Below, in pieces: positions 3,937-58,263 of a stretch of DNA of 64,000 nucleotides (position 1 is its first letter; the number at the start of each line of letters is the position of its first letter). Below the pieces are notes generated by a model. It worked only from the letters and a program-made list of their open reading frames with translations, had not been told where the DNA came from and ran no database searches. The DNA is taken from positions 120,623,199-120,687,198 of the forward strand of contig OZ038380.1 in NCBI GenBank assembly GCA_964036045.1, in the 5' to 3' direction. Position numbers and translations under genes: made by a program. The DNA is from Eutreptiella sp. 'Long Island Sound 2002'. Its lineage: Eukaryota > Euglenozoa > Euglenophyceae > Eutreptiales > Eutreptiaceae.

Positions 3937-3940
3937 TATA
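3937..3940. repeat. TATA target-site duplication, left flank of element 1 (copy L)
   Basis: TATA directly abuts the terminal repeat TTCCATTGTCTAC. The same four bases occur at 18614-18617 after the other terminus. Confidence 0.7.
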
Positions 3941-3959
3941 TTCCATTGTCTACAGAGGG

Positions 3960-5809: not shown

Positions 5810-7403
5810 GTACCCTTCGTGAACCGGCCGTTTGAATCCGAGATTCACGGTACCGTGAATTTCACCCAATTTTGCTGTGTTTTGCTCGTAACTTGGTGCT
5901 ATTGTGTGCTTTTGTCGTGCTACCTTCGCCCAAAGTAAGATGCAACAAATAGGTGCAATTTAGAGTTTTAAAGTCCCCGCATGGTTTAACACATTTGGTG
6001 AGATTCGCGTGAATGTGAAATTCACGCACCTAAATTCACGCAGAAATTCACGCTAGATTCACGGATTCACGAGAATATGAAATTCGCACGAATTTCGTAC
6101 GAATTCGTACGAAATTCGTACGAATTTCGTACGAATTTACCCTCCTTTCCACTCTTTCGCTTTGTTACAGCTCTCAAAGCCCTCGCGTTCTTTTCTTTTA
6201 ACATTGTCGCAGCAGACTATGTCTCAACTCGCAAGCCTGGCCTCGCGCCCCGACCCCTCAGCCGACACCCTCGCCCACTACCAAGCCCTCCCCGTTGCCC
6301 ACCATCCATTGGAGGAGGCAACGTACGAGTCGGAGGCACTGGAGGTGGATGACATCGTGGGCTGGGCAGCCTCCCTCGACCCCTCCCCCGATGTCATCCA
6401 CATCGACATGCGCAGCCCCACCCGCAACAGCTACCTCGGGGGGAGGGGATGGGCCACAACCCTGTGGAGGGAATTGCGCCACCAACTCCCCACCCTCAAA
6501 TTTCTCCATCTAACCCCTCCCCCCTCCAGTGTTGACCAGCTCCTCAACTCGATGAGGAATAACCCTGTGGGGAAGCCTAAGGACGCCCACGTCCAGGTGT
6601 ACCCCACCACTAACCTCGTCCACACCCCCCCCCCACTGCGATATGGTGTGCCTGCAGGATCTTGCTGCAGGTGCACCAGCAGACCACTCTTTTTTCCCCT
6701 TTTCTTGGCATCTTGCCAACCCCCGGTGGTGGGATGATTTGGGCGTCGCCCCTTTCCATCCCACCATCCCCCCTCAGGTGCACGTCCCCGACGTCACCCA
6801 CCCCACCTTCTATAGCACAACTTCTTTGCAATGGTACCGTGGTGCCTCATGCGCCCCCCCCTTCATTTCGAGTGAACCCCCCCTCCGCACCGAACCCCTT
6901 CCCGACCCCCCTCATGGGGTGACGGGCAGCCCTGACCCCGCCCCCGACAGGGTTGGCCCCTCTCAGCCGCCCCTCAACTTTGTTGATGGGAACGGCTACA
7001 TTGTGCTTCGGGGGCTTGTGGAGGCACGGGATTGTGAGGTGGGGTGGAACAAGGTGATGAAGGCGTGGGGCAGCGGCGACGAAAAAGTCGTCGCAATTCG
7101 TACGAAATTCGTACGAATTTGGTACGAATTCACGTGAATTCACGGCTGTGAATCGGCTACAGGCTTGCCGGCTTCCGGCACCTCTGGTTTTGGGCATGGT
7201 GCGGTCATGATGCATGCTTTTGGGGCGGGACTTTCATTGGATGATGCGTAACAAAGCTAGGGGAGGAATTTTGGCCCCTCAAAGCCCGTGAAATGAACCA
7301 AGAATATGGCATTTCCCCCCCAAAACCTCAAAATTTGGGTAAATTCACGTGAAATTCACGCAATTATTCAAACGGCCACTTAACGGCCGTTCACGAAGGG
7401 TAC
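5810..7403 (+). mobile_element. Element 3: 1.6-kb transposon inside the copy L transposase
   Basis: Terminal inverted repeats begin GTACCCTTCGTGAACCGGCC at 5810 and, on the other strand from 7403, GTACCCTTCGTGAACGGCCG, so they match over about 20 bases with one indel. The 4-bp duplication is ACAT. Subterminal regions on both sides (about 6000-6145 and 7090-7345) are packed with TTCACGTGAATTCACG-like and CGTACGAATTTCGTACG-like palindromes, mirror-arranged. The interior carries one candidate gene (6219-7137) but no transposase motif I recognise, so this looks like a non-autonomous element or one that has captured a host sequence. Confidence 0.75.
6219..7137 (+). CDS. Hypothetical protein carried by element 3
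   Basis: The ATG at 6219 follows a subterminal promoter-like AT stretch. One frame runs to about 6640 (LEVDDIVGWAASLDP; IDMRSPTRNSYLGGRG; LWRELRHQLPTLKFLHL). A second frame continues to 7137 (HLANPRWWDDLGVAP; FVDGNGYIVLRGLVEA; GWNKVMKAWGSGDEK). The change of frame at about 6640-6700 could be an intron (GGTGTGCCTGCAGG region) or an indel in one of the poly-C tracts. The composition is protein-like and unrelated to the surrounding transposase. It ends inside the right subterminal repeat, whose CGTACGAATT units supply the last codons. No family recognised; possible captured gene. Confidence 0.4.
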
Positions 7404-7407
7404 ACAT
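7404..7407. repeat. ACAT target-site duplication of element 3 (right)
   Basis: Partner of 5806-5809. Confidence 0.75.
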
Positions 7408-7561
7408 GTGGCCCCACACCTCATCCTCGGTGTACGCGACTAGTTCAATTTGGCCTGGCCGGACTCCATGCATGATATTTGCTGCACAATATCCTCCAAG
7501 GGGAGTGCACCCGCATAGAGTTTCGTGGGAAATGGCATTTTCGAAGAGCGGTGTGTCTGCA

Positions 7562-8156: not shown

Positions 8157-11100
8157 CTACAATTCTTGGATGTCACCGTCCGTCATCTTGCCCTCGGCGG
8201 CCGTCTCCGTATCTGGAGCCCCTTCTTGTTCGGCACGGCGTTCCGGGGAGTCGGGGGGCTCCTCCTGCACTCGCACAGGCGTCTGCAGAACACGGAAAAC
8301 GGGTCTGCTATCCTCCAGAGGAGGGCCAGAATCGAGACACATGTAACACGTAACACGCGCAGAACGCTCAACACACGCCGGGGTGGATTCCAGAGGCACA
8401 ACGGAACCATACGGGCATGACGGGCAAACGGCAGTGGCACCACAACGCGCACCTGCTCACCTGCCGGACCACCATCGCCCCCTACTGAGACCTCCGCACC
8501 CGCTACAGCGCCTTCTGCGGCGCCTTCTGCGGCCTCCTGGGGCCCTTGTTTGGCCTCCTCACCTTTGGTCTCTGGGGGAAGCTTCTGCAGAACGCGAACA
8601 ACGTGATGTCTCTCCTCCAAAGGCAACGCGGAGGCACGACATGTAGCACGCGCAGGACGCGCAACACGGGCAACACAGAGCGCAGCGGACTCTGGAGGTG
8701 ACAAAGAAGCACAGGTGGAGAACACTCAGTAAAACGACCTGCCGCTCCTCCATGGCACCGGCGCTAGATCCTTCTACTCTGATGCTCTGGGGCTCATCGT
8801 CCCGCGTCTCGCCGGTCTCCCGCGGATCCTGTGGAAACACAAGGGGGGCCACCGAGGTGCAAAACATTGGGCAGACGAGACTGGGGGTCCACATACATGT
8901 GACTCACGGCTCCGTACAAACCACGCGTTGAAAACCGCAACGGAGGAAGTACAATCGGGTTGGTTCCGCAGCCGCCCAAGCAACTTCTTGATCTGTGCCA
9001 CATCTGTGAACGGGCCAAGTAGCGCCTTCGGTTGAAGCTCGGGCGGCTCGGACGTTCCGAAGGGGGGTGCGCCATAGGGCGGGGAAGGCGGGGGCCCCGC
9101 GGCGGCACGTCATGCGGCGGAGGCGGCGGGAGGGCCAGCAGCAGCGGCGGATAGGGGTGCCACTGCGGGTCTTGGTGGTACGATTGCTGGGGTTGACGGT
9201 GGGCATGAGGCGGCGGGTACTGTGGTGGCGGGGGGGGGGAAGGTGCGGGTACCCGCTCATGTGAGGGGGCTCACAATCCCAAGCGGCAATCTGCACAACG
9301 CGTAACACGGAGAGTCCCCCTCCAGAAGCGTACGTGGAATCATACGTGCAACACGCGTAAAACGCGCATCACGCTATCATGGGCCTCCAGAGACGCGGCG
9401 GAGGGAACAGCAAGCACGCCACCGACACCACAAAGCACACAAATACCCGCGGTTTCTTCGCCGCCACCTCTCGGGTGCGCACCAACGACCATGCTCCAGA
9501 CGCCGGCAGTTCGAGGTTCCGTTCCTCTTCCAATTCGTACGCCATCAGGCCGGCCATCTCGACAAACCGGACGAACTTCTCCTACAAAACGCGGAAAACG
9601 GGAATTTTCCTCCAGAGGCAGGCTAGAAGCAAACGCGCAGAACGCGCGGAACGCGCATGACGCGCGGCACGACTAAGCAGAAACAAAACAGAAGCGGTGC
9701 GCAACACCAGCAAAACATCCATTTCCATGTCAACAATGTCTTTGATGCCGATTGCGCTCACCCGATCGGCCCCGCCACCTGCACGACCACCTCACAGGCC
9801 CTCCATCTTCAGCTTGGCTAGACGGATACCCTCCGATGGCGGGCTCAGGTCCACCGGCCGTTGCGGTGCGGCGGCGCAACGCGTACAAACCGAAAGGCCC
9901 TTCAAAATCCCCTTTGCCACTTGCCGCGGGCTACTCGAGGGATACCGCTTTTCGAAATACTCACGGGCTGCTGCACCCGACTGGGCGTTCTTGGTCCCGC
10001 ATCTCAGCACGCTTTGCACGCTCAGGGCCCGGACACTGGTGTGCAGCAGAACTGCCAAACCAATCTCTTGCTTGGACTTGGGTTCCTCCGACAAGCAGTC
10101 CTTGTAGTGCATCTCCAATCTGCCCAGAGCCGCATTGAAGTCCGTCTCCAAGATTCTCTCATTGTGTCCAGATCACGGTTGTACCCACCTTCATGCTGGA
10201 ACCTCCGTGCTCTTGTCAGTGCGGCGCTGATGCTCTTCTGCGGGCCCTTCCCGCCAATCGCAAAGGACACGTGACCACGGGCCGGCTTGTCCTTGTCCTT
10301 CTTTTTCTTGGGCATCTCCGCCTCGGACTTCTTCGGTGGCACCTTGGGCGGGCTCCGCTCCTCCGACTTCCGCTTCTTCTTCTCTGCCATTGTCTGCGGC
10401 TCCTTCTTGACCTCCAGCATGGTGGACCGTGCTGCCTTGGCGGAAGAAGAAGAGTGTTTCTCCGGCACAACGGGGTCCTCTGGCTCGTCGTCAGAATGCT
10501 CCTTCGGTGCGCCTCGGGCCTGCTTTTTGCCTTGGGCTGGCTCGTCCTCCTCTTTCTCCTCAGTCTCCTCTTCCTCCTCCTCGTCTCCGTCGTACGCTGA
10601 TGCCTCCTCCTCCTCTTCCTCCTCACTGGTTTCTTCTTCGCCCTCCAACTAGGTCCACAACCGTTTCGCTTGGATCTGCAGAACGCACAGCACGTGTAGC
10701 ACGATGGCGGCGCCCCCCAGAGGCGGAACGAGCGGCACATCACCGGAACGCGCAGAACACGCAACACGCGCAACACGCGTATGACACGGGGCAGAATCAC
10801 CTACAGATGCAACACGCAGCACGCGTAGTACAACCTTTGTGTACTCGAACCATCCATCCGGCTTGGCGCGGCAATCTTGGACTTTCGCGGGATCGCGCGG
10901 CTTTCCTTTTTTCGTCTTAATCTGCAGGCAGTTGGTGGGTTAAGCAGCTTATTGAAAATGGGCACTGGGGATTGTCACGGTGCGACCATACAAAACAACA
11001 TGGCACGTGTCATGCATGGATACTTGATATGCGGTCACGTTGGTGAGGAAATTCTCGTCCTCTTTGCGATCCTTGCTGCCGACCTTCTTGCGGTTCACCC

Positions 11101-11709
11101 AGGCTGCGTGCCACCTGGATGTGAAGAAATGTGTGGCACGGCCCAGAAGCAGAAACAAAAAGGCGAAACGAACGGCATCGACGTGGGAGACATCAAAAGA
11201 CACCACACCCGTACTCCAGCCCATTGAACAATCACATACATGTCTGCTGTTTGATCTGGAACACGATGAACGCGTTGTGCTTCAACGTGGCCGCGGTCCC
11301 CCAACTACCCAGGTGGCCCCCCTTGGCAACCCGCTGCTTGTGGCTATCCGGGAAAAGGGGTGCGGGCGTGAAGAAAGGGCTGAGGTACATGAGGACGCGT
11401 AGCTCGCACAAAGCGTGGGTTCCGGCCTCCAGAAGCATGGTGTTCGTTACGCGCGGCACGCGCAACACACCTTGCACGGATATGCAACACCTGTTATTCG
11501 GTTTCCAGAGGCACACCTAGAATCGAACGCTTAGAACACGTAACACGCGCGGCACACGGAGCACGAAAGCCAAGGTAGAGGCAAAGGCACGATACGCTTC
11601 TCACATGGAAAACGGTGGAAATGAACAAAACGGATGCTTCCACGACTTCCGGCACGTTCGAGAACCCCCCGGAACAACAAAACTTTATGGATTCATTTTT
11701 GACGAACAA
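8157..11709 (-). pseudogene. Accessory gene A of element 1, copy L (broken)
   Basis: At least ten exon-like blocks on the minus strand, alignable one by one with gene A of copy R (52249-55643). In order they are: SNVPEVVEASVLF (about 11650-11600); LKHNAFIVFQIKQ (about 11240-11340); WHAAWVNRKKVGSKDRK (about 11040-11110); KTKKGKPRDPAKVQD (about 10850-10920); acidic then Lys-rich (about 10660-10260); GHVSFAIGG, RCGTKNAQSGAAAREYF and CTRC (about 10270-9700); MAGLMAYELEEERNLEL (about 9590-9450); a Pro/His-rich block (about 9290-9020); two blocks without clear partner (about 9005-8750); Glu-rich exons (about 8590-8460 and 8290-8157) ending GDIQEL and TAG. Breaks are a frameshift near 10145, a TGA near 9790 and a TAG near 10650. 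Function unknown. Confidence 0.7.
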
Positions 11710-11736: not shown

Positions 11737-11738
11737 TA
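11737..11738. repeat. TA duplication, left flank of element 2
   Basis: TA precedes TGGGGTGCAGCC here and follows the other terminus at 18602-18603. In the uninterrupted copy R the same position reads GTGGTAGTCAAAGG with a single TA. Confidence 0.8.
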
Positions 11739-11929
11739 TGGGGTGCAGCCAAGGAAGGATGGCCTAGGCACCCCCCCCCCCTTCCTAGGGTTTTTCTACT
11801 CCTACACGTTACAACGGCATCCGAAGACTTTGAACACAAACACCGCACCTTCAATAGGCCTATTTTGGGTGACATTGGGTCCCGGGTTGGTGATGCCCAA
11901 TTTTTGGGTGTTTTTGGAAACCCCGTTTT

Positions 11930-12075
11930 GGGCAACAACCCCCCAGGGAACCCCCCTTCCTAGCCAGGAAGGGGGGTTCCTAGGGAGGTTCCTGGGCAGA
12001 AACCCCCCCCTTCCTAGACCCCTTCCTGGGTAGGAACCCCCCTTCCTAGACCCTTCCTATGACCCTTCCTGTCCA
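11930..12075. repeat. AGGAACCCCCCTTCCT palindromic cluster 1
   Basis: Seven or so copies of AGGAACCCCCCTTCCT in both orientations between the left terminus of element 2 and the end of gene B. The preceding stretch 11777-11930 contains no gene. Confidence 0.8.
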
Positions 12076-12089
12076 GAGGCAATGGCACA

Positions 12090-13800
12090 GAAATCCGTTC
12101 GCTGGGGCTTGAATCGCATTGTGCCACCGCATTGATGTCGTCACTGGTCCACATGCCGCTTGCGTCGCTGACAACGGCCGCACCGCGGCCTTGCCGCGCC
12201 TCGTACAATTGCAAACCGACGCTCAGCGCGTCGGTGGGCACCACGTGCCTCATTCCGAGGCGTGTGATGCGGGGTCGCCGAAGACACCAACCGCGCATCG
12301 AGGTATTGAGATGCCGCTTGAACGGTGGGTTTCTGTATTCTATCGGATTACTGCTAAACATTTACAAACTCCCAAAGCGACGCGCAAAACATGCGCTGTG
12401 AACACATGCCCAATGTACCCAAGGGGTTACACCGCATTGCAATTTACCCCAACACTCCCCTAAGCGGTCACTCGCGGACTCCAATTCCTTGAGTTCAGCC
12501 TGTGTTAGCCAATCCCTTTTGCGCCATAGTGCGTGCATTCGATGCATGGATAATAACACATGCTTCATCAATAGGAAAAATTTAACGCCACCAAAGGCCA
12601 CGTCGAGTAGGTTGTCCCGCAATACGGCCACAACTCGGCCATATAATGCACTGTTCTCAAAAAACATTTTGCCACCTGTTATATCAAATTTTCCGGCCTT
12701 GGTTGGCCGGGGAGCCAACCGCTCAGCATGCGGAACATTTTTCACCTCATCCAAAAGCTTGTGAAGCTCCAAAACAAAAGCCTTCCCTGCGTCCCTTGCG
12801 TCACGGGCAACGTCGGGTGCACCGTTTTCAATCAAATCTTTCAATGTTTCATTGACTTGCTTAACAATTGCGTTCGCAATACGACATGAGCCATGCTCCA
12901 CGTCACCAACACGGTTGCATGGTCCAATTGCCTGCAAAAATGAGCCCCACCTGCATTGGGCCGGTACAGAATTGGCACGTGCCAAGGAATCAATGCAATG
13001 GCAGCCTACCCAACATTTCCCCTTGTGATAATTGGCCGAAAGCATGGCTTTGCCATCTCTTGTCAACGCACGTACACTCGGGATGCGATTCCCCAAGTGC
13101 CAAACATCCACAATGGACAAAACATCCAAAACATCCTGATTAAGGTTTGCCTTAATGTCAATGGCCCGGAGACAATGCGTGCCATCCGGTCCGTCAAGCG
13201 CCCACCACGTCGCCTAGCGTCGCACGTCGCCTGCAGCTGCTACACCCTCTGACCAAACGGTCACGTGGACGTCGCACGTGGTGGCCGAGGTCTGCCACAG
13301 CGGTGTGGCATCTGCGCAAATGATAATCAAAAGCCGGTCTTGACGAGGGATGTTAAAGGTACCGCACGCCCTACTCAACGTCAGCTGGCTTTGCACTACT
13401 TCAAGCAGTGGACCCCGATGAAACCTCTAGGGCCGTTGCGACATATGGCAGCACTTGGCTGCGCCCCTCCATTAATTCCCTTCGTGTACAATTGCGCTCC
13501 AATTTTAACATGTTGCGCGTGGAGAGGCTCGTTTGGTGTGCCGTTTGCAAAACTTTGATCACTTCCTCGGAGACATGCTGTTCGCGCACCTCGTGGTTGT
13601 TGGACTCCATCAGTATACCGTTGCCGGTTGTGCGCACAACGATGTCGTCATCTCCAAGCAGAGTGCCCACAACGTCGCGAATGTATTTTCGTTTCTGTCG
13701 CCGTGCATCAACCTCCAAATCCCAATACGGGGTCACTCGAACGACACTGCCAAGGAAATTTGAAACGGCCTTTTGTATTACATTTAAAATGGAAGCCTGC
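12090..13800 (-). pseudogene. Gene B of element 2: candidate transposase of unrecognised family
   Basis: Blocks read in order on the minus strand: KAVSNFLGSVVRVTPYWDLE to about 13400; RLLIIICADATPLWQTSAT (about 13350-13280); LSIVDVWHLGNRIPSVRA (about 13125-13060); a long helical region; WVHWACVHSACFARRFGSL; TAA near 12361; FSSNPIEYRNPPFK and SMRGWCLRRPRITR (about 12355-12260). Asp in ADATPL, Asp in VDVWH and Glu in NPIEYR could form a DDE triad, and a DVWH motif occurs in some eukaryotic transposases (for example Kolobok/THAP-type), but this assignment is inference. A diverged copy at 44850-45441 conserves SMRG-CLRRPR. The TAA falls where that copy has a Tyr codon, so it is a genuine nonsense change. 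Further frame changes at about 13400 and 13210 mark it as decayed or intron-containing. Confidence 0.5.
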
Positions 13801-13819
13801 CAAGAACTGTGAGGGCACC

Positions 13820-14060
13820 ATGTGCACAGGAAGTACCACAGGAACCCCACAGGAACCCCCTTCCTACACAGGAACCCCCCCCCTTTCCGGCCAGGAACTG
13901 TCCCAGGAACCCCACAGGAACCCCCTTCCTGTACAGGAAGACCCTTCCTGGACCCTTCCTGGGTCCCTTCCTGCACAGGAACCCCCCCTTCCTGCACAAG
14001 AACCCCCTTCCTGTACCCCTTCCTAGACACTTTCGGCACAGCAACCCCCCCCCTTCCTAA
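13820..14060. repeat. AGGAACCCCCCTTCCT palindromic cluster 2
   Basis: About a dozen copies of AGGAACCCC and CCTTCCTG units upstream of gene B. Similar clusters lie at every gap between coding blocks of element 2, which suggests intron or spacer minisatellites. Confidence 0.85.
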
Positions 14061-14630
14061 ACCTGGTGTTTCGGTGTACTGCCCCATCGGTTGCCCCGAT
14101 CCTTACACCGCTGTTACAACGGGGCATTGCAACCACACATGCCATGCAACTGCGTCCATGCTTGGAGAGCTTGGGAATCTCGGTGGTACCTCCAAGGGTG
14201 AAGCTATGTGAAGCACCCCGCTCGTGGCACCACCTTACGCGCCCTGCGCACGACGTGACTACTATCCTGCGCGATTGTCGCGCACAAAATAAGATAAGGG
14301 TTAGATATGCGTTAGGGTTACGCCAAAAAGGATTATGGGTTATAAGGGTTATGGGTTAAGGTGTGTATTTTTTTGCGCACCGCGTCGCACAACCCTTGGC
14401 GGGTTTGCACAGCCATGCATGCATGCGTGCAATCTTTGGAGTGGCCTTGTCACAAAACACGTGTGCTGCAACCAACGGGACGCAACTCCCTCGCAATGTG
14501 CCACCAAGGGTTGTCTCTCCACGTCTCATGCCCACACAGGTTGGCAGAACCCGAGCACCCCTCAACAGCCACCAGGCCAGAGGGACACTTGGGATCCTTG
14601 CGCTCTCATCGCCACCGTGCCTCGCCACTC
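14061..14630. other. Non-coding spacer in element 2
   Basis: No gene supported. A short stretch at 14285-14360 contains degenerate GGGTTA-type strings (GTTAGGGTTACG, TATAAGGGTTATGGG). Small open frames on both strands have no block-like conservation with the 44-49 kb homologous region. Confidence 0.4.
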
Positions 14631-14634
14631 CTCA

Positions 14635-15765
14635 TCACTTGCTGGGGCTGGGGCCCTGGCCGTACGTCCGGTCGAGGATGCTCACCGCCCGGTCACATTC
14701 CGCAGCTTTCTCCCGCAGCAGAGACTCGGCCTTGACCCTGCCTGCCTGCGCCTCGCGCGCTGCATCCTCAGCAGCCTCCAACCGGTCTTCTGGGGCAATC
14801 AGTCGTGCCTGCATACTTGCAATGGTTGCCCTCGTGCTTGACAACCTGTTCCCGTGCTTCGCGCTCCTTCTTGGTTGCCTGCTCCGTGGCCCCCTCTGCG
14901 CGGGTCTTGCCGCCACTTGCCATCGCCTTCTCAACGGCATCAGGCAACACCTCCTTCAACGCCGTGCGCGGGACCTCCTGCAACCCAGGTGCCAGCTGCG
15001 TGATCACTGTCCCCGTGGCCATTGCCATGGGACTTGCCAGCCCTGGACCGCCTGGTACGCGCCGCTTGGAGGGGGAGTCGGTGATGACGGTCCTATGGGC
15101 ACGACGCTTCACGGAACCTGCGCTGCCCTGTCTGATTGCTCGGGCTTGACCTCGGCCCCAGGTTGCTGCCACAGTGGTTGTGTATCTGCCTCCCTGCCGG
15201 GCTTCTTCTTCACGTGTGAGCGTCCACCCAATTGACCCTGTTCTTGCCGCTTGCGATACTTCTCCAGCCACTCGTCAACCGCGTTGTGCACCTAAATGGG
15301 GACAACGTCATCCAAACCCGTCAGCCTTGCCAGACTCTTCAGCGTCTTGAAGCTGGTCTGCTCGCTGTACACCAAGAAAGACCATGTGTTGCTGGCCTTG
15401 GCATGGCCAACAAGGCACAAGTACTGCGCAACGTAGTACGTCTTGCCATGTCCTGCATGCCCCTGGGGCAGCTCGGCGAGATTGTCCGTACATGCCACTG
15501 GCAACCGCAGTTGCAGGGCCGTGGCCGCCTTCCCCTTCCGGACGGTCAGTGTGCAGTCGCGATATCAGAACGTGCCCGCTTGCAGGGTCACAGGACTGTG
15601 CATGTCTGCCATGGTCAGCCTTGATTGCAACACCCATGTCGGAGGGTCTTGAAGACTTGGTGCTCGCCCATCCACGGTCCGCGCAGCCTCCGATGGTGCC
15701 ACTGGCAGTGGGGCTGCCCGTTCCTCCTCATCGACGGACTTCAAGACCAGCCGTGGGTACACGTC
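14635..15765 (-). pseudogene. Gene D of element 2: coiled-coil protein, frame-disrupted
   Basis: Minus-strand blocks: YPRLVLKSVDEEERAAPL to AGTF then TGA (about 15565); YRDCTLTVRKGK; GHGKTYYVAQYLCLVGHA; TWSFLVYSEQTSFKTLKSLA; PI then TAG (15292-15294, where CCCATTTAG could instead be an acceptor); AVDEWLEKYRKRQEQGQLGG; a Ser/Arg/Lys-rich part (SVKRRAHRT, SPSKRR); and a coiled coil near 14830-14650 (RLEAAEDAAREAQAGRV, LLREKAAECDRA). The D' region at 47790-48990 has the same order: a beta-rich first half, a Q/R/K helix ending LGKVGG, a basic linker and a terminal coiled coil. Function unknown; the basic linker and coiled coil would fit a DNA-associated accessory protein. Confidence 0.45.
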
Positions 15766-15819
15766 GACATCCGCCTGAAGAGAAGTACGGGAAACACCAT
15801 CGACGAAAGGGGACAGGAA

Positions 15820-16075
15820 TTGGTCCAGGAAGGGAGTTCCTGCGCAGAAAGGGGGGAGGGTTCCTGTGCAGGAAGGGTCCAGGAAGGGTCTAGGAAGGGG
15901 TCGAGGAAGGGGGGTTCCTGTGCAGGAAGGTGGGGGGGGTTCCTGTGCACGAAGGGGGTTCCTGGGGGGTTCCTGGGATGGTTCTTGTGCAGGAAGGGGG
16001 GGGGTTCCTGTGCAGGATGGGGGTTCCTAGGGGGTTCCTGGGACAGTTCCTGTGCAGGAAGGGGGGGGGGGTGCG
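15820..16075. repeat. AGGAACCCCCCTTCCT palindromic cluster 3
   Basis: Mostly in the GGTTCCT-AGGAAGG orientation, 12 or more units, between gene D and the exon block ending at 16258. Confidence 0.85.
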
Positions 16076-16255
16076 TGAGTGGCATGCACATGCCACAGCC
16101 CACACACGGTGCCTAGTTGAAGCCCTCAAACATCCCTCCCCTTGCATTGCCACTGCCGCTCACCCTTGGCAAGCAGTACTGACCATACATTTGCCCCATT
16201 GCATTGTGAACCCCTCCAACCAAAGGCCGTGCGATTCAAAGGGGACAGAGTGTCA

Positions 16256-16900
16256 ACCTACTGGCATGCACACCAAAAGGATTGCTCTTGTGCCACCTTG
16301 GTGTTGCGAACGATCGCTCCGGCGGCCATCAACAAGCTCGGGTCCACGGGTCTGGGCTCGGCTGGTGCTTTCTCCATCCCGTATACCAAAATGTCACTGC
16401 TCTCCTCGGTACCCCGGGTGAATCCTCCAAAGTGGCCGTTCACCACCACCAGCATGCTCCCAGGCGGCGTAACCAACAAGGCGTGGTGTTCCGATCTCGG
16501 CCAGGGCAGCCAGTCGCGCTCGTGTGCATGCCCCACCAGTGGGCGGTCCTCCGCCTTGGGGTTGTGTCATCGGGAATCACATGTGGTGCGGGCGCTGCCT
16601 CGTAATGCCCGGTGTAAAGCGTCGTCCCATCCGACGGAATCAAACAAGTCACCATGTGCTGCAGGGCAAGGACACGACTCGGATCAGCGGCCTCGGCATT
16701 CCCCGGATCGGATGTTGTTGCTGCTACTGCTTTAGTGTCGCACTTTCTGCACTCGATCCCAGTGTGATTGCGGCAAAGGACTTGCACTCCACACCCAAAG
16801 CACTTCTCACTTGTCGGCTTCCGGCGGCATCCGTGGACTCCACAACTGACAGCGACCTTGTGCGCCCAGAACGGAGGCGTGATGGCGTGGGTGGTGGCGT
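16256..16900 (-). CDS. Cys/His-rich (zinc-binding-like) part of gene E, element 2
   Basis: A minus-strand block reads VSCGVHGCRRKPTSEKCF, then CGVQVLCRNHTGIECRKCD. The Cys/His pairs at regular spacing fit a small cross-brace zinc module, B-box or RING-like. A following block (about 16536-16258) reads HALLVTPPGSMLVVVNGHFGG and DILVYGMEKAP and ends in a stop after SFWCACQ. The blocks lie in different frames from each other and from the oxygenase-like block upstream, so introns or frameshifts must separate them. They probably belong to the same protein as 16724-17401. The function of the zinc module is inferred from spacing only. Confidence 0.4.
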
Positions 16901-17401
16901 AGGACACGGTGTGCGTCGACAACGCACAGAACCCAATAATACGACGCGACCCGGGTTCGCAGCCAATGGCAGGCCGCCTCCTTCATGCACCACCGTCGAG
17001 AAGATCACCCACAGGGAACCCCTTCTCATCGCCATAGGGTGGATGATCCAAGGCCGAGGGAAGGCACGGGCAGATATGGCGACGAACTGCGCACAATTCT
17101 CATCATCAAGGATTTCCATCGAGAGAGCACAGAACAGTGAGAGGGCAATGCCATCTACAGGAAGTGACGCTGCTGGGAAATCTCGGTGCGGCAGTTGGCG
17201 AACGTGGGTGATGGACTCGATGTACCCTTGCGTTATGACGTGCAGCGTCTTGCCCAAGATCGCCTCCAACTTGGCCTTCACCCGCGTCACCATGGCCGAC
17301 GGGCGCGGCAGGTCCCAAAGCTGGATGTGTTCCTCCCCATCCGGATGTTTGGACATGTCCTCCGGCTTCCCCCACACCATCTTACGGTCCGGCGGCACCT
17401 G
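16750..17401 (-). CDS. 2-oxoglutarate/Fe(II) oxygenase-like domain of gene E, element 2
   Basis: A frame preceded by the acceptor GCCGAGCTCAG reads VPPDRKMVWGKPED and then an oxygenase-like core: HVRQLPHRDFP (HxD), DGIALSLFCALSME, CAQFVAISARAF, MRRGSLWVIFSTVVHEGGG (distal His) and GRVVLLGSV (Arg 13 residues after the His). The order HxD, about 80 residues, His, 10-14 residues, Arg with the G-S-L-W-V-F strand is characteristic of the double-stranded beta-helix 2OG-Fe(II) superfamily. Some eukaryotic transposons (KDZ elements carrying TET/JBP genes) are known to encode such enzymes on nucleic-acid substrates. Whether this one acts on DNA is not shown. No clear homologue is visible in the 44-49 kb region. 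Confidence 0.55.
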
Positions 17402-17449
17402 AGCTCGGCCAGCAACTGGGCGGTTGTGGTTGAAGATCCGGGCCCAACG

Positions 17450-18270
17450 CTACTCGGCGATCGCCACTGCCTCCTTGTGCGCCTCATCCACCTCATACTC
17501 CGCAAAAAAACTCCGGATGAACAAGTGCTGCAGGCTGGCAAGGTGACCGGGGTCGTTGGTCACGGCAGTGGTGCAGTCACTCGGCAGCTCCAAGAGCGGA
17601 TCATCGTGCACGACAAACAGCGGTGTGGAGGTGACGGGGAGGGCAAGTAGCCCGCTGCCCGCATACGCACTCGGCACGGTGAGCCCGGGGCCGTCGCTGT
17701 CCCTTTCCCACGCTGAGCGATTGGAGAGCGAGTAGATGGGCAGGGTCTCCTCACCGGATTGCCGTGGGTCGAAGAGGAAGAGCTTCCGCCTGGCTGCCTC
17801 CTTGTGCCACCCCTCCTTGGCGAAAGTGGCAGGCTTGCGCTTCGTGGAAGCGAAGCGGAGGGTGGTGGGCGGCTCGGCATCCACAGGGTGGGCAGCCATG
17901 TAATGGCTGTTGATCCGGGCGTGGTCGTGGGGCAGGCGGGTGGACAGGGACTCCAGCAAGCAGGAGTAGTCCGCTCCGCTATGCCGCACGTGGAAAGCGG
18001 TGATCTCCGGGTTGCAGCGCGACGTCACTGCAATGAGGTTTGAGAGGGCACAGGGGTCCCTGTCGCGGAGGATGGACTTGGTGATGCGCACCCGGCCGAT
18101 GCTCGTGCCCGGCGGCCAAGTCACGGGGGAGTTGGTTGCGATGGCCGTGTTGTGGAACGTCTGCCCCTCCGGAAGGGAGCAACCACGTGTACCGGCCGGG
18201 CCTGTGACGGCCGTCATCCAATCCCAAGCGAACGGATAGGCAGATATCGCAAAAACCAGGCTGCCTTTGA
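17450..18270 (-). CDS. Gene C of element 2: conserved unknown protein
   Basis: Open on the minus strand from about 18270 (AISAYPFAWDWMTAV, GPAGTRGCSLPEG, PPGTSIGRVRITKSI, CALSNLIAVTSRCNPE, SRLNSHY-type region) to YEVDEAHKEAVAIAE and a TAG at 17450. A diverged copy at 45491-46186 shares GTRG, PPGT-I-R-R-I, CAL and NPE at the same spacing, so the frame is real. After the TAG the same frame stays open (RWARIFNHNRPVAG) into the oxygenase-like block. Either the TAG is spanned by a 70-80-base intron (donor near 17475, acceptor 17402), or C and E form one gene with a nonsense codon. No family recognised. Confidence 0.5.
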
Positions 18271-18430
18271 GGGGCAGGAAGGGCCATAGGAAGGGGGGTT
18301 CCTGGCCGGGAAGGGGGGGGTTCCTGGCCAGGAAGGGGTCTAGGAAGGGTCTAGGAAGGGGGGTTCCTACCAGGTTGGGGTCCAAGAAGGGTGCAGGAAG
18401 GGTCCAGGAAGGGGTTCCTAGGGGGGTTAG
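18265..18430. repeat. AGGAACCCCCCTTCCT palindromic cluster 4
   Basis: Upstream of gene C and extending to the right terminus region. The equivalent position upstream of the diverged gene C' (46200-46370) is also filled with a GGAACCCC minisatellite, but a different one. 18431-18560 holds no gene. Confidence 0.8.
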
Positions 18431-18601
18431 TGCCCGAAAAAAGTTGACTCCCTTGGTCCGACACCGGGGTCGTGATAGTTCCTATACGCTGGTTTTTGAC
18501 CCCCCAAACACCCCCCATAAGTGTGGTCCGTTACTTTAGCGGTGCACTACCATGTCATTTGGAGGGGGGTTCCTAGGCCACCCTTCCTTGGCTACACCCC
18601 A

Positions 18602-18603
18602 TA
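18602..18603. repeat. TA duplication, right flank of element 2
   Basis: Partner of 11737-11738. Confidence 0.8.
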
Positions 18604-18613
18604 GACAAAGGAA

Positions 18614-18617
18614 TATA
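18614..18617. repeat. TATA target-site duplication, right flank of element 1 (copy L)
   Basis: Partner of 3937-3940, immediately after AGACAAAGGAA. Confidence 0.7.
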
Positions 18618-27200: not shown

Positions 27201-27209
27201 CCCCATCCG

Positions 27210-29026: not shown

Positions 29027-29341
29027 TCGTCAAATATTTTGGGGGTGTAGACCCCCCAAATATTTGACGGAACCCCATCTGTGAAATATTTGGGGGCTGG
29101 AGACCCCCCAAATATTTGACGGAACCCCATGCGTGAAATATTTGGGGGCTGTAGACCCGCCAAATATTTGACGGAACCCCGTCGGTCAAATATTTTGGGG
29201 GTGTACAGCCCCCAAATATTTGACGGAACCCCATCCGTGAAATATTTGGGGGCTGTAGACCCCCCAAATATTTGACGGAACCCCATCCGTGAAATATTTG
29301 GGGGCTGTAGACCCCCCAAATATTTGACGGAACCCCATCCG

Positions 29342-41700: not shown

Positions 41701-41990
41701 TATGGGGACCTATGGGGGCTTGTGGAGGCCTATGGGGGCCTGTGGGGACCTATAGGGACCTATGGGCACCTTTGGGGACCTATGGGGACCTATGGGGGCT
41801 GATGGGGACTCATTGGCATCTAGGGGGACCTTTGGGGACCTATGGGCACCTCTGGGGACCCATGGGCACCTTTGGGGGCCTATGGGGGCCTATGGGGGCC
41901 TATGGGGACCTATTGGCACCTTTGGGGACCTATGGGCACCTTTGGGGGCCCATGGGGTCCTATGGGGGCCTATGGGCACCTTTTTGTTTG
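38761..41990. repeat. 10-bp satellite (GGGGCCTATG type)
   Basis: More than 300 units of about 10 bp (GGGGGCCTAT, GGGGACCTAT, GGGCACCTTT variants). Ten-base units give a ten-residue periodic frame (GAYGGLWGPM) without stops in all plus frames, so the long open frames are not evidence for a gene. A marker segment (GACTCATCGGCATCTAGGGG) recurs near 40390, 40950, 41520 and, changed, at 41800, showing a higher-order period of about 561-567 bp and a half-length last interval. Confidence 0.95.
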
Positions 41991-52221: not shown

Positions 52222-52225
52222 TATA
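52222..52225. repeat. TATA target-site duplication, left flank of element 1 (copy R)
   Basis: Followed by TTCCTTTGACTACC. Partner at 58260-58263. Confidence 0.75.
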
Positions 52226-52248
52226 TTCCTTTGACTACCACGCGTAGA

Positions 52249-55200
52249 ATGCATATCAAGAAATTTTCTCGCGTTTTTGCTTTTATCATTGTTTTGTGCT
52301 TCCGAGGGTTTTCGAGGGTGCCCGACGCGATGGAACTATCCGTTTCGCCCAATTCAACCATTTTTGAGGAGAGAAGCACAATTGCCTCCTGCCTCTGCCT
52401 CCGCCTTGGTGCTACGCATGCTGCGTGTGTTCCGCGTCCTGCGCGTTTCGGTCCGGTGCCTCTTAGTCTGCCTCCGGAAGTCTTCCGACGCGTTCTACGC
52501 GTTCTGCAGGGGCTAATTGCTTCACACCTATCATCCAGCACCTGATTTTTGTTTTTTGGTGTTTTTTTGCCATGCTTGCAGCCGTGTACTCTGCCACACA
52601 CTTGCACTGGTTCCCAATGGAACTCAAACGTGCGTATTCAAATGACAATTGCCTCCTGCCTATGCCTTTGCCTTGGTGCTACACTGCCCACGTGTGTTGG
52701 GTGTTTTGCGTGTTGTCATTTTTCGCTTTTGACGTTGCCTATGGAGCCGTTGTACGCATGCTACGCGCTCTGCAGCATGCTTTTGCCACACCATTGTTAG
52801 GCTGCTCTGCTTTTATGGTGCAGGAGCCATGCCTGCAGCCCTATACCCCGCCACACATTCTCAATGGTTGCAGAAGGGTGGGAAGCTGGGAGAGTGGAAG
52901 CATCCGGAGAAACTGAAGCACGACGCCTTCATTGTATTTCAAATTAAACAAGCCACGAGTATGTGTTTGTGTCTTCGTTTTCGTCTCGCTTCCCGCCTTG
53001 CACCGTTGTCCTCCTCACCTCCTTGTGTCGAAGCGGGGTGGCATGCCGGATGGGTCCATCGGAAGAAGAAAGGGGCCAAGGACCGGCAAGACAAAGAATT
53101 TTGGTTGACGAACCTCACAACGTATTAGGTGTACCACGTTCACGGGTTTGCGGTCAGTTATTTCTTGTGCGCACTATTTCGCGCTGCCTTTTGTCCCCTA
53201 CCAATTACCCTTGCACCCTTTTACAGGTGAAGGCCCCGAAGGGCAAGCCACATGCGCCACATGTGGTGCAAGACGTCCGCAACACGAAGGATGGCTTCTT
53301 GAAATACAAAAAGGTGTTCTGTGCGTTCCGCGCGTTTTATTCGTTCCCTTTTTCGTTGCCTCTGGAGCTGCCTGTGGTTGTGTGCTACGCGTTTTGCGCG
53401 TTCCGGGAGTTTTGCGCGTTTCGTACAGTTGCCTCCGTTGTTGCCTCTGGGGTTGCCTCCATGTGTCTTACATGTTTTGCATGTTCTACAGATTCCGCGC
53501 GACCGGCTGTGGACGTTGATCCAAGATGACGCAACCACGTAGAGTTCCACCGAGGAGGAGTCGGAAGAGGAGTCGGAAGAGGAGGCAGCCGAGGAGGAGG
53601 AGGAGGACGAGGAGGACGAAGAGGGCAGTGATGCTGCCAGTGTGAAGGACGAGGACGAGCCCTCCCTCGCCCAACGGGCTTCTCCTCCACTTTCCCCTTG
53701 CCCTTGCTCTTCTTCTTGGGTGGACTCTTCGCCTTTTCTTTCTTCTTCTTGGACAGCTCCTCCGGCTCTGGCTTTGCCTCTGGCTTCGCCTTGACAGGGG
53801 TCCCCTTTGGTTGTGCTTGTGCGGCCATGCGGGCAACCTCCAGGTGGGTGCTGCGGGGGGCGCAAGCATGTGCCTTACGCAGTGGAAGGCGAACCGCACA
53901 GGAAGATGCCCACAGGTGCAACCCGAGGGGAGAAGTACCAAGCCGGGGCCGCCTGCGACAACGATGTGCACCTCATGCATCGCACCCTGGAGTCGGAATA
54001 CGAAGTGTCACTCGGACGAGTATGCCAACACTACAAAGTGTGTTTGGCCGAGGAAACACAAGCCCGCCGCGTATTGGTCCTGGCGCTGCTTCTGGTGACT
54101 GATGTGCGGGCGTACAGTGTGCAGATGGTCCTCCGATGTGGCACGAAGAATGCACAAAGCACGGCCGCTGCCAGAGAACTGTTTGAGGAGCGATACCGCA
54201 GCAGCTCACCCCACCAAGTCGCAACCGGGTTGATGAACGGGGTGTCCGTGTGCACAAACTGTGTCGGAGCCCCGGACTGGCCTACGGACTTTGGTGACCC
54301 CGCAGCTGCAAGCCTGACGTTGGCGAAATTGAAGGGGGAGCTCCTTTCGTCAGGATACCGACCACGGCGCAGCATGGACCAACTGAGTGTGTTTGGTGCG
54401 GAGGACATTGTCGACATGCCCACTGACGCTTTGTAGGTGTACTGCATGTGTTGCGTGTTCCCTCTCTAACGCCTCCGGTCCAGCGTGCAGCGCGTTTTCC
54501 GCGTTCTGCGCGTGCTACGTGTTCCCGATGTTGCGCCTCTTCGTTGCCTCTAGGGGTGCCTTCCCGTGTTACACGGGCCTTGCGTCGTCTGTACAGGAGA
54601 AACTGTCGCGCACGGTCCACATGGCTGGCCTCATGGCCTACACCCTAACGGAGGACAGAGGTGTCGACCTGCCCGACACAGGGGCATGGACACTCGTGAG
54701 GACGAAGGATGCAAAGAGGCAGCGGGTGTGCATTCCTGTGCTGGGCGTTATGGCACGGGTCTTTCCACTTGCCTCTGGAGTTGCCTCTTGTCTGCTTTGC
54801 GCGTCCTACGCGTTCTACGCGGTCTGCACGTTCGATTCTGTTCCTGCCTCTGGATTTGCCTTCCCGTGTTTTAGCTTTTTTGCGCGCGCTACATGTTCTG
54901 CAGACAAGCTGGGAGGAGTGGCCGCAACAATATGGGTATCAGTATGAGCCGCGGTACGAGTATGAGCCGCGGTACGAGTACCGGCCGATGAAGACGGATC
55001 CGGAAATGCCTTCGAGCTCCGGGAGCCTCCCGTATGGGTCCGACCCGTACAAGTACCAGCCCCCCACGTACCCGCCGCCACCCACGTATCCTCCACCGCA
55101 ACCCACGCTGCCGCCACCGCCACTGCCACTACTGCCATCAGCGCCACTACTCCCACCAGCGCCACTACCGCGGGGACCTCAGCCACCACCACCACCACCG

Positions 55201-55643
55201 TCAGAGTCTGGGGAGCAGCAAGGCAGGCCGGAGATGGGGCCGGAGATGGGACCCCCGCACACGGAAGGTGCACAGGTGCGCGTTGCACATTAGTACTATG
55301 CGTTCCAGGGGATTTGCACGTAGCCTCCGGTTGTGCCTTTGGATGTTAGGCCCCGTGTTCTCCGCGTTCTGCGCGTTCCACACGTGTTCGTTTTGCTGCC
55401 TCTCGGCTTGCCTCGGGAGGTGGGTTGCATGTGTCACGCGTTTTTCGTGTTCTGCAGCACCCAATCAAAAAGGAGCCGGAGGAGGAGTCAACCCCGCCAG
55501 TGGATCCACCGCAGGAGCCGGAGGCAGCCGAGAAAGAGAGCGCTGGGGCGGCGAAGAGCGATGCGGAGATGGGAGAACAACCCCCGGAGGAAGCCGCAGC
55601 GGCGGGAGAGGAGATGGAGAAGGACGAGATAGTGCAGATTTAG
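52249..55643 (+). CDS. Accessory gene A of element 1, copy R (8-exon model)
   Basis: Proposed exons: 52249-52372; about 52846-52958 (LKHDAFIVFQIKQ); about 53032-53128 (WHAGWVHRKKKGAKDRQD); 53227-53313 (KAPKGKPHAPHVVQDV); 53492-54436; 54597-54725 (MAGLMAYTLTEDRGVDLPD); 54904-55275 (Tyr/Pro-rich, QYEPRYEYEPRYEYRP); 55458-55643 (acidic, ending DEIVQI and TAG-TAA). Exons 4, 6 and 7 are multiples of three, so the introns around them are phase 0. The large exon holds an acidic tract, an inverted Lys-rich segment (see 53675-53865), then HVPYAVEGEP, LRCGTKNAQSTAAARELFEE and a VCTNC motif. In-frame TAGs sit at 53126-53128, 53540-53542 and 54434-54436. Conserved in copy L. No known family; charged tracts suggest a nuclear, chromatin- or DNA-associated partner of the transposase. 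Confidence 0.65.
52373..55457 (+). other. Intron family of gene A, copy R
   Basis: Best supported introns: 53129-53226 (98), 53314-53491 (178), 54437-54596 (160), 54726-54903 (178) and 55276-55457 (182), all GT-AG, mostly between AG or GG and GT. Less precise ones lie at 52373-52520 and 52959-53031. They share, in order, GTGYRY at the donor, GCGTTCTGCGCGTT-type units, TTGCCTCTGGAGTTGCCTC and an acceptor CGTGTTCTGCAG. The same family recurs at about 56095-56280 and 58035-58235, and at least seven times on the minus strand of copy L (for example about 4020-4140, 8580-8700, 9300-9370, 10680-10830). Confidence 0.8.
53675..53865 (-). other. Micro-inversion within gene A exon 5, copy R
   Basis: The plus strand becomes Ser/Pro-rich and hits TGA near 53795. 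The minus strand of just this interval reads MAAQAQPKGTPVKAKPEAK, PEELSKKKKEKAKSPPKKKS and KVEEKPVGR, which is the Lys-rich block expected from copy L (KKKRKSEERSPPK; KKKKDKDKPARGHVSF). Immediately after the interval the plus strand resumes with KHVPYAVEGEP, as in copy L. An inversion of about 190 bp explains all three observations. Breakpoints are approximate. Confidence 0.7.
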
Positions 55644-56292
55644 TAAATCGGTCCGACCTAAGTTGGTGCAGCCCAGTCAGCATATTTCCAAACACACGGT
55701 TTTCGGATGGGGATCGGGTTGGGGATGCGCATGGGGATGAGTGGCTCGACCCCGATGAGGTACGCGGCAGACAAACCTCACAACCCCTCTTCTTTTCAAG
55801 GCCATTGCCGTTGGCCCAGCAAGCGCACTCACAGCAAACCCCAAAGTGGTGGCATCGCCAGTCGGCGCTTCCATCGGGGCACCGCTGAAAACGGTTTTTT
55901 TCGACGCCTTTATTTATTGCGTTGTGAATACTTTTTCAACGTTCGGATGAATGGTGGCGGCTGCGACCGCTGCCTTGCGTGGACCATGCAGGGTGCACGG
56001 ACACCGTTTCAAGAAAGCAACAATCCAATTGTTCGTGCTGCCGCCACCATTGACCCATCCCCACGGCCCTTTGCCCAGCCCATGTTCCCGCAACGTGTAC
56101 TGTGTGTGTTTCGTGTTGTACGCGCTCTACGTGTCCACTTCTGCTTCTGCCTCTGGAGGTCGTGTTACGCGTTCTGCGTGTGCTGCGCGTTCTGCGCGTT
56201 CCGCCCATGCTGCCTCTGCTGTTGCCTCTGGAACTGCCACTGGTGTGTTGCGTGTTCTACGGAGTCCCATTTCTCAACAAGCTTATTTTGTG
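55644..56292 (+). other. Spacer between gene A and transposase, copy R
   Basis: No gene. About 56095-56280 is an intron-family sequence (GCGTTCTGCGCGTTCCGCCC, TTGCCTCTGGAACTGCC) immediately before the transposase ATG, so the transposase mRNA may have a spliced 5' leader. Confidence 0.5.
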
Positions 56293-57877
56293 ATGCCACC
56301 AAAATTTCAGCCACCGTTGTACGACCATAGGCTCCCACGGCAGGACTGTGCGGCCGATATCCAGTACGGTATCCGGCCAGGGGAGTCCTGGCTCATCGGC
56401 TATACTGAGGACGAGGTGTGGGACCATATCATGGCCCCCGTAGAGAATCTACAATGCCAAGCCCTACGGGACCACGGAAGGCCAGACCTGCTACCTCTAG
56501 TACCTAGGTACAATGCATTTCTAATTCTATTGGGGATGGTGCGACCCATGCAGGTGGACGGGGTTTGGGACCGCAAGGGCCTATTATACAATCCCTATAT
56601 GGCAAACATGCTGACGCGTCGCCAATATTACTTGCTGCAACGGTTGCTACGTACCGATGTGGTCTCACTACTAGAAGACTGCAATGGCCAATGGGCGGGA
56701 GCGTGGTGCATGGGGGGTGGGGCCTGCGGCGATGAGTCGGTGGTGCCCCACAAGGGGATGCTAGCGGGCCCCTTGAAAATGTTTATTGCCCGGAAACCGC
56801 ACCCAACCGGGATAAAGTTGTATTGCCTGGCGGACGCAACATGGGGGTATGTGGTGGACATGTATTTGTACACCGGTGTACGGGGCAGGCTACACCGCTA
56901 CGGCACTGCGGCGGGAAACTTTGATGCCAAAAACATCATGAAGTTGTGGGCATCATTGCTACCCGAGGGGACGGTGCTATGTGCCGACTCCTTTTTCGGG
57001 TCCCACGGCCTCGCAAAGGAATTGGCCGCCAACAAGCGGGCATTCCTCATGATGACGAAGAGGTCCACGTACGGCGTGACATGGGCCGGGGAGCAGGTGC
57101 AGGAGGGGCAGACGGCGGTGTGCACTGTTGCGGATTTGAAGTACAGTTTGTGCGTGTACAAGAATCCGAAGGTCGGGCACAAACCCCCCCCGCGTTGTGC
57201 CGATGTTGACGAATGTGTGGTTTGCCCGAAAGGGACCACCTCAGCGGCGAAGCGGGCGCGAAGTGCACTCCGTGGTGGCGGCGTACCGCACAGTGTCGCG
57301 CGGTGTCGATGGTGTGAACCAGATGGCCCTGCAGATGAGGCAGGTTGGCCGCCAGATGACATGGGCCCACGCGGTGCGTGCGTTCGTGCTCCAGTACGCG
57401 GTTGCGAATGCGTTCGCAACTTGCCGGCAATTGGGACTTTGCAAGGAGACCACTAGTATATGGGAGTGGCAATGGCAAGTGTTGCGGCGGCGGTACTTTG
57501 CCCACCCCCTCCGACAAGAGGTGCACGTGCCGGAGGCGACACAACGGCGGCGTGTGTGCCACTTTTGCAAGAGGGGAAGAACCGGTTATGAATGTACCGG
57601 TTGTGGAAAGGCGTTCCACGTGTTGTGCTTTGCACCGGGACATGGCTATGGAGGTGTGCAAGGCGCACGGGACATGGAGGTAGACGAGGAGGACGAGGAG
57701 GTGGGGGAGGAGGACGAAGAGGACGGGGAGGACGGGGAGGACGAGGAGGACGAGGAGGACGAGGAGGACGAGGAGGACGAGGAGGGTGAGGAGGATGAGG
57801 AGGATGAGGAGGATGAGGAGGATGAGGAGGATGAGGAGGACGAGGAGGATGAGGAGGATGAGGAAGATGAGGAGTAG
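56293..57877 (+). CDS. piggyBac-type DDE transposase, copy R (one homopolymer frameshift)
   Basis: Catalyses cut-and-paste transposition in the nucleus. The ATG at 56293 aligns with the copy L start. DDE_Tnp_1_7 motifs: GDESVVPHKG (Asp 147), RKPHPTGIKLYCLADATWGY, CADSFFGSHGL (Asp 232, 85 residues on; about 78 in piggyBac) and SRGVDGVNQMALQM (third Asp). A run of eight C at 57184-57191 shifts the frame after GHKP; copy L has the expected in-frame spacing, so seven C would restore it. The C-terminus has a Cys/His module (RVCHFCKRGRTGYECTGCGK, FHVLCFAPGH), the normal piggyBac Cys-rich DNA-binding domain, then an unusual 65-residue Asp/Glu tail from GAGGAC/GAGGAT repeats. Stop TAG at 57875. Confidence 0.9.
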
Positions 57878-57919
57878 TGTGGTGGAATCGGGGGCTTGAA
57901 CGAGACGGTCATGGAGGCG

Positions 57920-58259
57920 GAGCCTCTGCTATCCCTACCCATGGGACCAGTGCGAAGCCTGGGGGACAACCGCGTAGGCTGGATACCCAACTGTGAGGAC
58001 GCAGCCCCTCCTCGATGTGCGCCCGTGTGCAAACCGACGTGCTGCGCGTTCTGCGCATTCTACGCGTTCCGGTATTTCAATTCTGCACGTGCCTCTGGAG
58101 GCGTGTGTTCAGCGTGCTACGTGTTCTGTGCGTGTTACTTGGTTTGTGCGTGTTTCACGCGTTGTGCGCGCTCTACGCGTTTTCAAAACCTTATGTGCAA
58201 CACCGTTGGCCACAAAAGCGCGCCTCCGGCCAGAAACGTACAGATGGTAGACAAAGGAA
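57920..58259 (+). other. Conserved 3' block and terminal region, copy R
   Basis: 57938-58000 is nearly identical to about 4200-4262 of copy L (shared CCCTACCCATGGGACCAGTG, GGGGGACAACCGC, TAGGCTGGATACCCAA), with about four or five differences over 65 bases. In copy R it is in frame with the transposase beyond its TAG (SLPMGPVRSLGDNR). Intron-family sequence follows at about 58035-58235, then the terminus. It could be a coding extension reached by splicing or readthrough, or a cis site for transposase binding. Confidence 0.6.
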
Positions 58260-58263
58260 TATA
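58260..58263. repeat. TATA target-site duplication, right flank of element 1 (copy R)
   Basis: Follows AGACAAAGGAA. Partner of 52222-52225. Confidence 0.75.

Follow-up and report, generated by a model that had tools for sequence, protein, structure and literature searches.

A predicted two-gene branch of the piggyBac superfamily with ATAT target duplications in the euglenophyte Eutreptiella

We analyzed a 64,000-nt stretch of the genome of Eutreptiella sp. 'Long Island Sound 2002' (OZ038380.1, positions 120,623,199 to 120,687,198; hereafter the window, part of contig C3 in the 2.28-Gb, 2,205-contig genome that was searched), which holds two diverged copies of a transposon, copy 1 at 3942-18612 and copy 2 at 52227-58258 (window numbering throughout). 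The copies very probably represent a two-gene cut-and-paste transposon of the piggyBac superfamily, in which the target loop of the transposase has been remodelled for ATAT and the second gene, gene A, encodes an element-specific accessory protein. Judged from sequence, they would belong to a new two-gene, ATAT-inserting branch of this superfamily, in which gene A has a presumed role.

Copy 2 is a 6.0-kb element on the forward strand, delineated by its termini and by protein and DNA similarity. Its left terminal inverted repeat, TCCTTTGACTACC (52227..52239, +), its right one (58246..58258, -), the left ATAT (52223..52226) and the right ATAT (58259..58262) were located by sequence and terminus search, and the identity of the duplication was settled by the three empty sites described below. 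Gene A (52829..55643, +) is followed by the transposase gene (56293..57877, +), which encodes a Cys-rich domain and an acidic tail and has a frameshift near 57190-57240. Copy 1, delineated by termini and similarity, lies in inverted orientation (-) between an ATAT at 3938..3941, within a recombinase-like gene, and another at 18613..18616. It has an approximate gene A exon span at 8160..11400 (-), the C-terminal part of the transposase at 4340..5608 (-) and N-terminal portions near 7405-7580 and 5690-5812, and it is interrupted by two nested elements: an unrelated one of ~1.6 kb in the transposase (5813..7409, approximate boundaries set by eye) and one of 6.87 kb in the terminus (11737..18603, a span that takes in the flanking TA), bounded by 43-nt inverted repeats that are 91% alike and flanked by TA. 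Repeats of the GGAACCCCCCTTCC type were also seen within the 6.87-kb element. Without both nested elements, copy 1 is about as long as copy 2.

The layout proposed in a first-pass annotation of this DNA, two diverged copies each with gene A and then a piggyBac-type transposase, was confirmed by the presence of the DDE_Tnp_1_7 domain in both and by colinear similarity: copy 2 peptides match copy 1 in the same order across gene A and the transposase, as does the DNA. The transposases of both copies are damaged. With up to three mismatches allowed, the window contains the terminus TATATTCCWTTGWCTAC at four places that form two facing pairs (3937(+), 18601(-), 52222(+) and 58247(-)), where 0.26 occurrences are expected, and the 13-bp terminus TTCCWTTGWCTAC has 2,215 matches in the genome compared with 164 for the reversed pattern; a chance origin of the window termini was rejected on these counts.

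The ATAT target duplication

The target duplication is ATAT, and the inverted repeat begins with TCC. The first-pass annotation, whose copies, ends and gene order are upheld by the termini, the similarity and the Pfam matches, had given the duplication as TATA and the end consensus as TTCC[AT]TTG[AT]CTAC, and in these two respects it has to be revised. We found three pairs of occupied and empty sites (copy 1, a short derivative, and an insertion on contig C14), and each of the empty sites holds a single ATAT.

Copy 1 sits in a tyrosine-recombinase-like gene (3500-3937 and 18613-19400), Crypton-like by eye; no meaningful Pfam match was found for this gene, which is named from its appearance. 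The joined flanks of copy 1 had 16 matches in the genome, two of them the window's own flanks. Five were intact paralogues of the site, 92-96% identical, ungapped over 233/233 nt and containing exactly one ATAT, and among the others one base of the site differs in two 81% copies, L058 (90%, partial) has a single ATAT, the C17 place (two overlapping loci) is gapped at the site, L064 (68%) differs, and the rest fall short. When four joints were tried, an uninterrupted recombinase frame through the junction was obtained if zero or six bases were retained; ATAT, read within TATATA, corresponds to six. The second pair concerns a 0.5-kb derivative inserted within a transposase gene as GACC-ATAT-TCC...GGA-ATAT-CATGG, for which the unoccupied stretch was present in 28 of the 30 loci searched and the occupied one in none, with a one-base change of the ATAT in L081 and L088. 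On C14, the same recombinase gene holds a second piggyBac-type insertion, read at its two ends, which lie ~10 kb apart (TTCA-ATAT-TCCTTTGGCTACC and GGTAGCCAAAGGA-ATAT-TCTTATC), and the uninterrupted form, TTCAATATTCTTATC, is present in the window.

The same tetranucleotide prevails among the family members sampled. In 30 transposase loci picked by protein score irrespective of their flanks, window copy 2 being one of them, the terminus was present in all cases, at a distance of 0.99-1.31 kb downstream from where the match starts (up to two mismatches allowed, at most one seen). The 3' flank was ATAT in 27 of these loci and TTAT, ATAA and TTTG in one each, the last belonging to L071, a doubtful end with an altered terminus; the base before the tetranucleotide was C in 15, T in 10, A in 4 and G in 1. 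Among 42 ends in 20 stretches bounded by facing termini (found by a pattern that fixes the last T, and including L031 and L034, which share flanks), TCC was preceded by ATAT in 38, ATGT in 2, ACAT in 1 and ATCT in 1. The inverted ends are 13 bp long, TCC[T/A]TTGNCTACC, and the first-pass consensus proved too narrow, most of the 30 copy 2 relatives ending in TCCTTTGGCTACC.

Two other accounts of the duplication are very improbable. An ordinary TTAA piggyBac with eroded ends, for which ATAT was a rare chance off-target, could appeal to the occasional use of ATAT by TTAA elements (2/21 sites of CsuPLE1, PMC4273485; here and below, cited papers are drawn on for the passages available), to the TTAT, ATAA and CTAA sites that make up about 12% for Pokey (PMC3849761), and to the rare flanks TTAT and ATAA seen here, each one change from TTAA and likewise from ATAT. 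However, ATAT adjoins 27/30 of the sampled 3' ends and TTAA, which we looked for, 0/30, and the other lineages also have ATAT, so that the first-pass claim of a duplication other than TTAA stands. A TATA duplication with ends starting TTCC, which is how all four window ends read (TATATTCC), can be dismissed just as firmly, because the base before ATAT varies among the 30 loci, the empty sites GACC-ATAT-CATGG and TTCA-ATAT-TCTTATC hold no TATA and are not readable in that way, and a TATA duplication would leave the copy 1 empty site two bases shorter than it is.

The transposase and its four lineages

Both window transposases match DDE_Tnp_1_7 (PF13843; three scores of 60.6, 76.7 and 52.2 bits, cut-off 22.4), and the transposase ORF of locus L043 matches the Trichoplusia ni piggyBac structure 6x67 (E 1.4e-5) with D268, D346 and D447 aligned. 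All three aspartate motifs lie in one open frame at 16 of the 30 loci, 8 of which start with MPPKF, and at 8 of the 30 an uninterrupted frame of 502-537 aa with all the aspartate motifs runs from MPPKF to the acidic tail. The C-terminal Cys-rich domain was recognised by eye (C-x2-C...C-x2-C...H-x2-C; PHD-like Pfam matches to it are below the cut-off), and the acidic tail is found in three lineages. The catalytic domain, the DDD triad and the Cys-rich domain together indicate that the transposase belongs to the piggyBac superfamily, and PF13843 and the linked gene A agree with the first-pass description of a piggyBac-type transposon with two genes.

Four transposase lineages, 37-70% identical to one another, were distinguished, all with ATAT ends, and gene A is clear in three of them and faint in the fourth. 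The three clear lineages are that of copy 2, that of copy 1 with L044 and L046-L048 (65-70% identical to the copy 2 transposase type), and that of L043 with L045 and L037 (54%). The fourth comprises the best PF13843 matches in the genome (116 scored of 1,654 candidates); its transposase, ~440 aa long and without an acidic tail, is 37-44% identical to the others. The 3' ends of this lineage read TCCTTTATCTACC in L110, L111 and L112 and TCCTTTGTCTACC in L113, with ATAT adjoining 4/4; homology between L110, L111 and L112 ends at ATAT, and the other end of L110 is likewise ATAT-TCCTTTATCTACC.

In piggyBac, TTAA is chosen as an unpaired site with a hydrogen bond between T0 and A3, and omega-loop residues R275, Y283 and K290 contact the hairpin and its neighbourhood (PMC7351741). 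In the Eutreptiella elements the loop sequence is PHKG...MFIARKPHPTGIK for most members of the copy 2 lineage, PHKG...MFIARKPHSTGIK for the copy 1 lineage, PHTG...MYIVRKPHNTGIK for L043, where the 6x67 alignment has two extra loop residues, and PHKG...QYIPRKPHSTGIK for the fourth lineage. R275 corresponds to K/T, Y283 to F/Y and K290 to P/S/N, R275 and K290 thus being replaced, on positions that were aligned for L043 only and read across by motif for the other lineages. We suggest that the transposase would act as piggyBac does, forming a hairpin on the 4-nt flank and joining with a stagger to a 4-bp site whose centre is TA, and that the remodelled target-contacting loop would direct the same chemistry to ATAT in place of TTAA. 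Between these two sites the central TA is kept and the outer bases are exchanged.

Gene A: linkage, selection and possible role

Gene A of copy 2 was modelled from similarity and GT...AG boundaries, with exon edges set by eye, and the inferred exons lie at about 52829-52957, 53033-53125, 53227-53313, 53492-53675, 53927-54433, 54597-54758, 54904-55274 and 55458-55643 (all +). The conserved exon at 53927..54433 (+; 169 aa, defined by similarity) served as a search query. According to this model, the protein starts with a short N-terminal part encoded by exons A1-A3, which a linker rich in acidic residues and Lys separates from a Cys-containing core (A4-A5); a Pro-rich stretch and an acidic C-terminus follow. 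A 188-bp inversion within gene A (53676..53863) sets copy 2 apart from the other copies that cover the region, 6/6 of which have the opposite orientation.

A search of the genome with 150 aa of the transposase yielded 2,531 first-look candidates; the 150 that were scored, copy 2 itself among them, are 88-100% identical to copy 2. The gene A exon query yielded 1,104 candidates, again with 150 scored. Among the matches listed, gene A lies on the same strand and no more than 10 kb upstream for 82/150 transposases, where 0.05 would be expected by chance, with a peak of the distance at 3.1-3.2 kb; conversely, 81/150 gene A matches have a listed transposase downstream. Other arrangements among these matches were limited to three same-strand pairs with gene A downstream and four pairs on opposite strands. 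In addition, 14 of 15 transposases sampled from the 68 without a listed partner have gene A exons in the 1-kb piece upstream. Both genes are present in seven of the 12 larger stretches that were retrieved by terminus position (L037-L048); in L041 just a single gene A exon was seen, L038 keeps parts of the two genes and represents a deletion derivative, and the ends chosen for L040 truncate it. A predominance of transposases without gene A, which would have told against the first-pass reading, was not found; L039, L042 and L107 show a transposase without gene A in the sequence retrieved.

The fourth lineage likely carries a gene A homologue as well. Upstream of its transposase a profile search detected faint matches to A1 (E 0.18), A2 (0.0047, in the L115 stretch) and A4 (0.0008, in the L114 stretch), tblastn found A2 (8e-4), A4 (0.008) and A1 (0.012) in the correct order and strand, and acidic and Lys-rich stretches lie between the exon matches.

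Selection on both genes was estimated as dN/dS by the Nei-Gojobori method. Gene A was estimable in 28 of 34 comparisons, and all 28 values were below 1 (0.14-0.65), which strengthens the case for a role of gene A in transposition and suggests that it has been retained by selection; decay after insertion raises all dN/dS values. In copy 1's lineage gene A is the more constrained of the two genes (0.14-0.27, as compared with 0.33-0.75 for the transposase and 1.87 in one nearly identical pair), and in the L043 lineage the ranges are 0.36-0.57 for gene A and 0.44-0.76 for the transposase.

We propose that the product of gene A is a nuclear accessory protein specific to the element, which aids its propagation and would most likely bind element DNA or the transposase complex. 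Nearly as likely as such an accessory, and a serious possibility in its own right, is a protein that regulates the element, by transcriptional control or by counteracting silencing, and acts outside the transposition complex. Acidic, Lys-rich and Pro-rich stretches would fit this role, as would several VKxE-type motifs seen by eye, which resemble SUMO sites. Candidate binding sites are offered by a 9-bp repeat, TRCGCGTTC (up to one mismatch), of which there are ~30 per element (52226-58259 and 3941-11736) with a marked strand bias (31 vs 0 in copy 2; 29 vs 1 in copy 1), mostly outside the exons of the inferred model. Three occur in the remaining window checked, and 3-5 are kept in each of eight short derivatives checked. 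Against a regulator, no DNA-binding fold was recognised in gene A, and the repeats could reflect intron composition.

Rather unlikely, and less probable than a regulator, is that gene A is a passenger, either a captured host gene or an ORF selected for a host function, with no part in transposition. It has no recognised domain, a few transposase copies lack it, it is less constrained than the transposase between lineages, and the spread of 0.5-kb derivatives too short for either gene indicates that gene A is not needed in cis. A passenger would not, however, be expected to stay at a constant place and on the same strand in the three clear lineages and, probably, in the fourth as well, to have dN/dS below 1 in 28/28 comparisons with tighter constraint than the transposase in copy 1's lineage, or to be so seldom found in another arrangement among the matches listed. 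We prefer an accessory protein that may act on element DNA or the transposase.

Several observations weigh against this interpretation of the element and its second gene. Gene A has no Pfam family and no convincing relative in the PDB (best E 0.12), and AlphaFold models of its conserved exon from the two window copies reached a pLDDT of 37, so that its role is argued from linkage and selection. Constraint on gene A is weaker than on the transposase in comparisons between lineages (0.24-0.65 vs 0.11-0.35), where the values are rough because dS is near saturation. No gene A was found in the 1-kb piece upstream of L107, and L039 and L042 have a transposase without gene A in the stretch fetched. 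The homologue in the fourth lineage is weak, its profile search having returned no A3 and a best reversed decoy of 0.32, and the omega-loop changes are correlated with the ATAT preference that they may cause. It is tentatively, and with less than even confidence, that we extend the proposal to a two-component branch in which a transposase loop rebuilt for ATAT and an obligatory gene A have been co-inherited since before the four lineages split.

Family expansion and relation to known elements

The family appears large and recently mobile in the host genome. L044 and L046 share blocks that are 99.9-100% identical but have different flanks, which, together with the open transposase frames, argues for recent mobility. 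Short derivatives (0.5 kb) without gene A and transposase are present: terminus pairs 538 bp apart occur among the first 100 terminus places, pairwise identity among six derivatives is 96.0-100% over 549 bp, and the L035 and L036 derivatives do not differ across 549 bp. L031 and L034 have the same flanks with the short derivative in opposite orientations, reflecting either two insertion events or inversion of the sequence between its ends, and at L090 and L091, and at L037, elements are inserted right at the ATAT adjoining another copy's end.

An 18-bp terminus had 17 matches in bacterial genomes, within a hand-estimated chance level (about 30 in 257 Gb), and three viral matches. In viral contigs no transposase relatives were confirmed by scans with six and two short patterns, and no gene A relatives by a scan with two. 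The Euglena spliced-leader core had 3,569 exact matches in the host genome and its reversed control 0. Elsewhere in the window, self-matches outline two long repeat arrays (21946-38761 and 38763-41984), the first with weak, probably spurious Pfam matches, and a ketoacyl-synthase domain (PF00109, 1.9e-34) at 20538-21251 belongs to a gene for a polyketide or fatty-acid synthase.

A canonical piggyBac element normally has a single transposase gene, whereas a second gene is present here (82/150 listed and 14/15 sampled). Accessory proteins are known from En/Spm (CACTA) elements, which combine a transposase with TnpA and have repeats near their ends; their transposase is unrelated and they make 3-bp duplications, so the likeness is a functional analogy only. 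With piggyBac (IFP2) of T. ni, the Eutreptiella elements share the homologous catalytic core (6x67, E 1.4e-5), the aligned DDD triad, a 4-bp palindromic duplication with a central TA and ends of about 13 bp (PMC7351741, PMC12324416). They differ from it in duplicating ATAT and not TTAA, in ends that start with TCC, in the replacement of R275 and K290, in the long acidic C-terminal tail of three lineages, in the introns of gene A and in the second gene; canonical piggyBac ends begin CC[C/T]T (PMC2872659), whereas these begin TCC[T/A]TTG. Pokey of Daphnia, also of the piggyBac superfamily, resembles them in its tetranucleotide target, short derivatives and insertion beside other copies, but 88% of its insertions are at TTAA and ATAT is absent from its table (PMC3849761). 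CsuPLE1 of Chilo suppressalis shares the ATAT duplication at 2/21 sites, but TTAA is its rule and its ends are CCCAGATTAGCCT (PMC4273485). PiggyMac/Tpb2 of ciliates are likewise piggyBac-derived and excise segments bounded by TA-containing repeats (PMC9942856), but they are domesticated host excisases and not mobile elements.

Within the accessible parts of the open-licence literature, non-TTAA targets of piggyBac elements appear only as a minority use; Repbase lay outside this search, and an earlier description is possible. In the passages available of a Euglena-related paper, piggyBac is merely listed as a superfamily (PMC8101967). If the proposed branch is real, it would be, within the reach of our searches, the first piggyBac system to combine a natural switch of target with a dedicated partner protein. 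piggyBac is a main gene-delivery tool, and its TTAA rule has been explained by the outer T-A hydrogen bond in the unpaired site (PMC7351741); a natural branch with outer A and T and with changes in the loop would make the reading of the target directly testable and may make a second specificity available. For the piggyBac superfamily, a conserved partner protein would introduce a new mechanism. The Euglena genome consists mostly of repeats (58.84%; PMC11252322), and for the Eutreptiella genome the finding names a large and, it appears, recently active class of elements.

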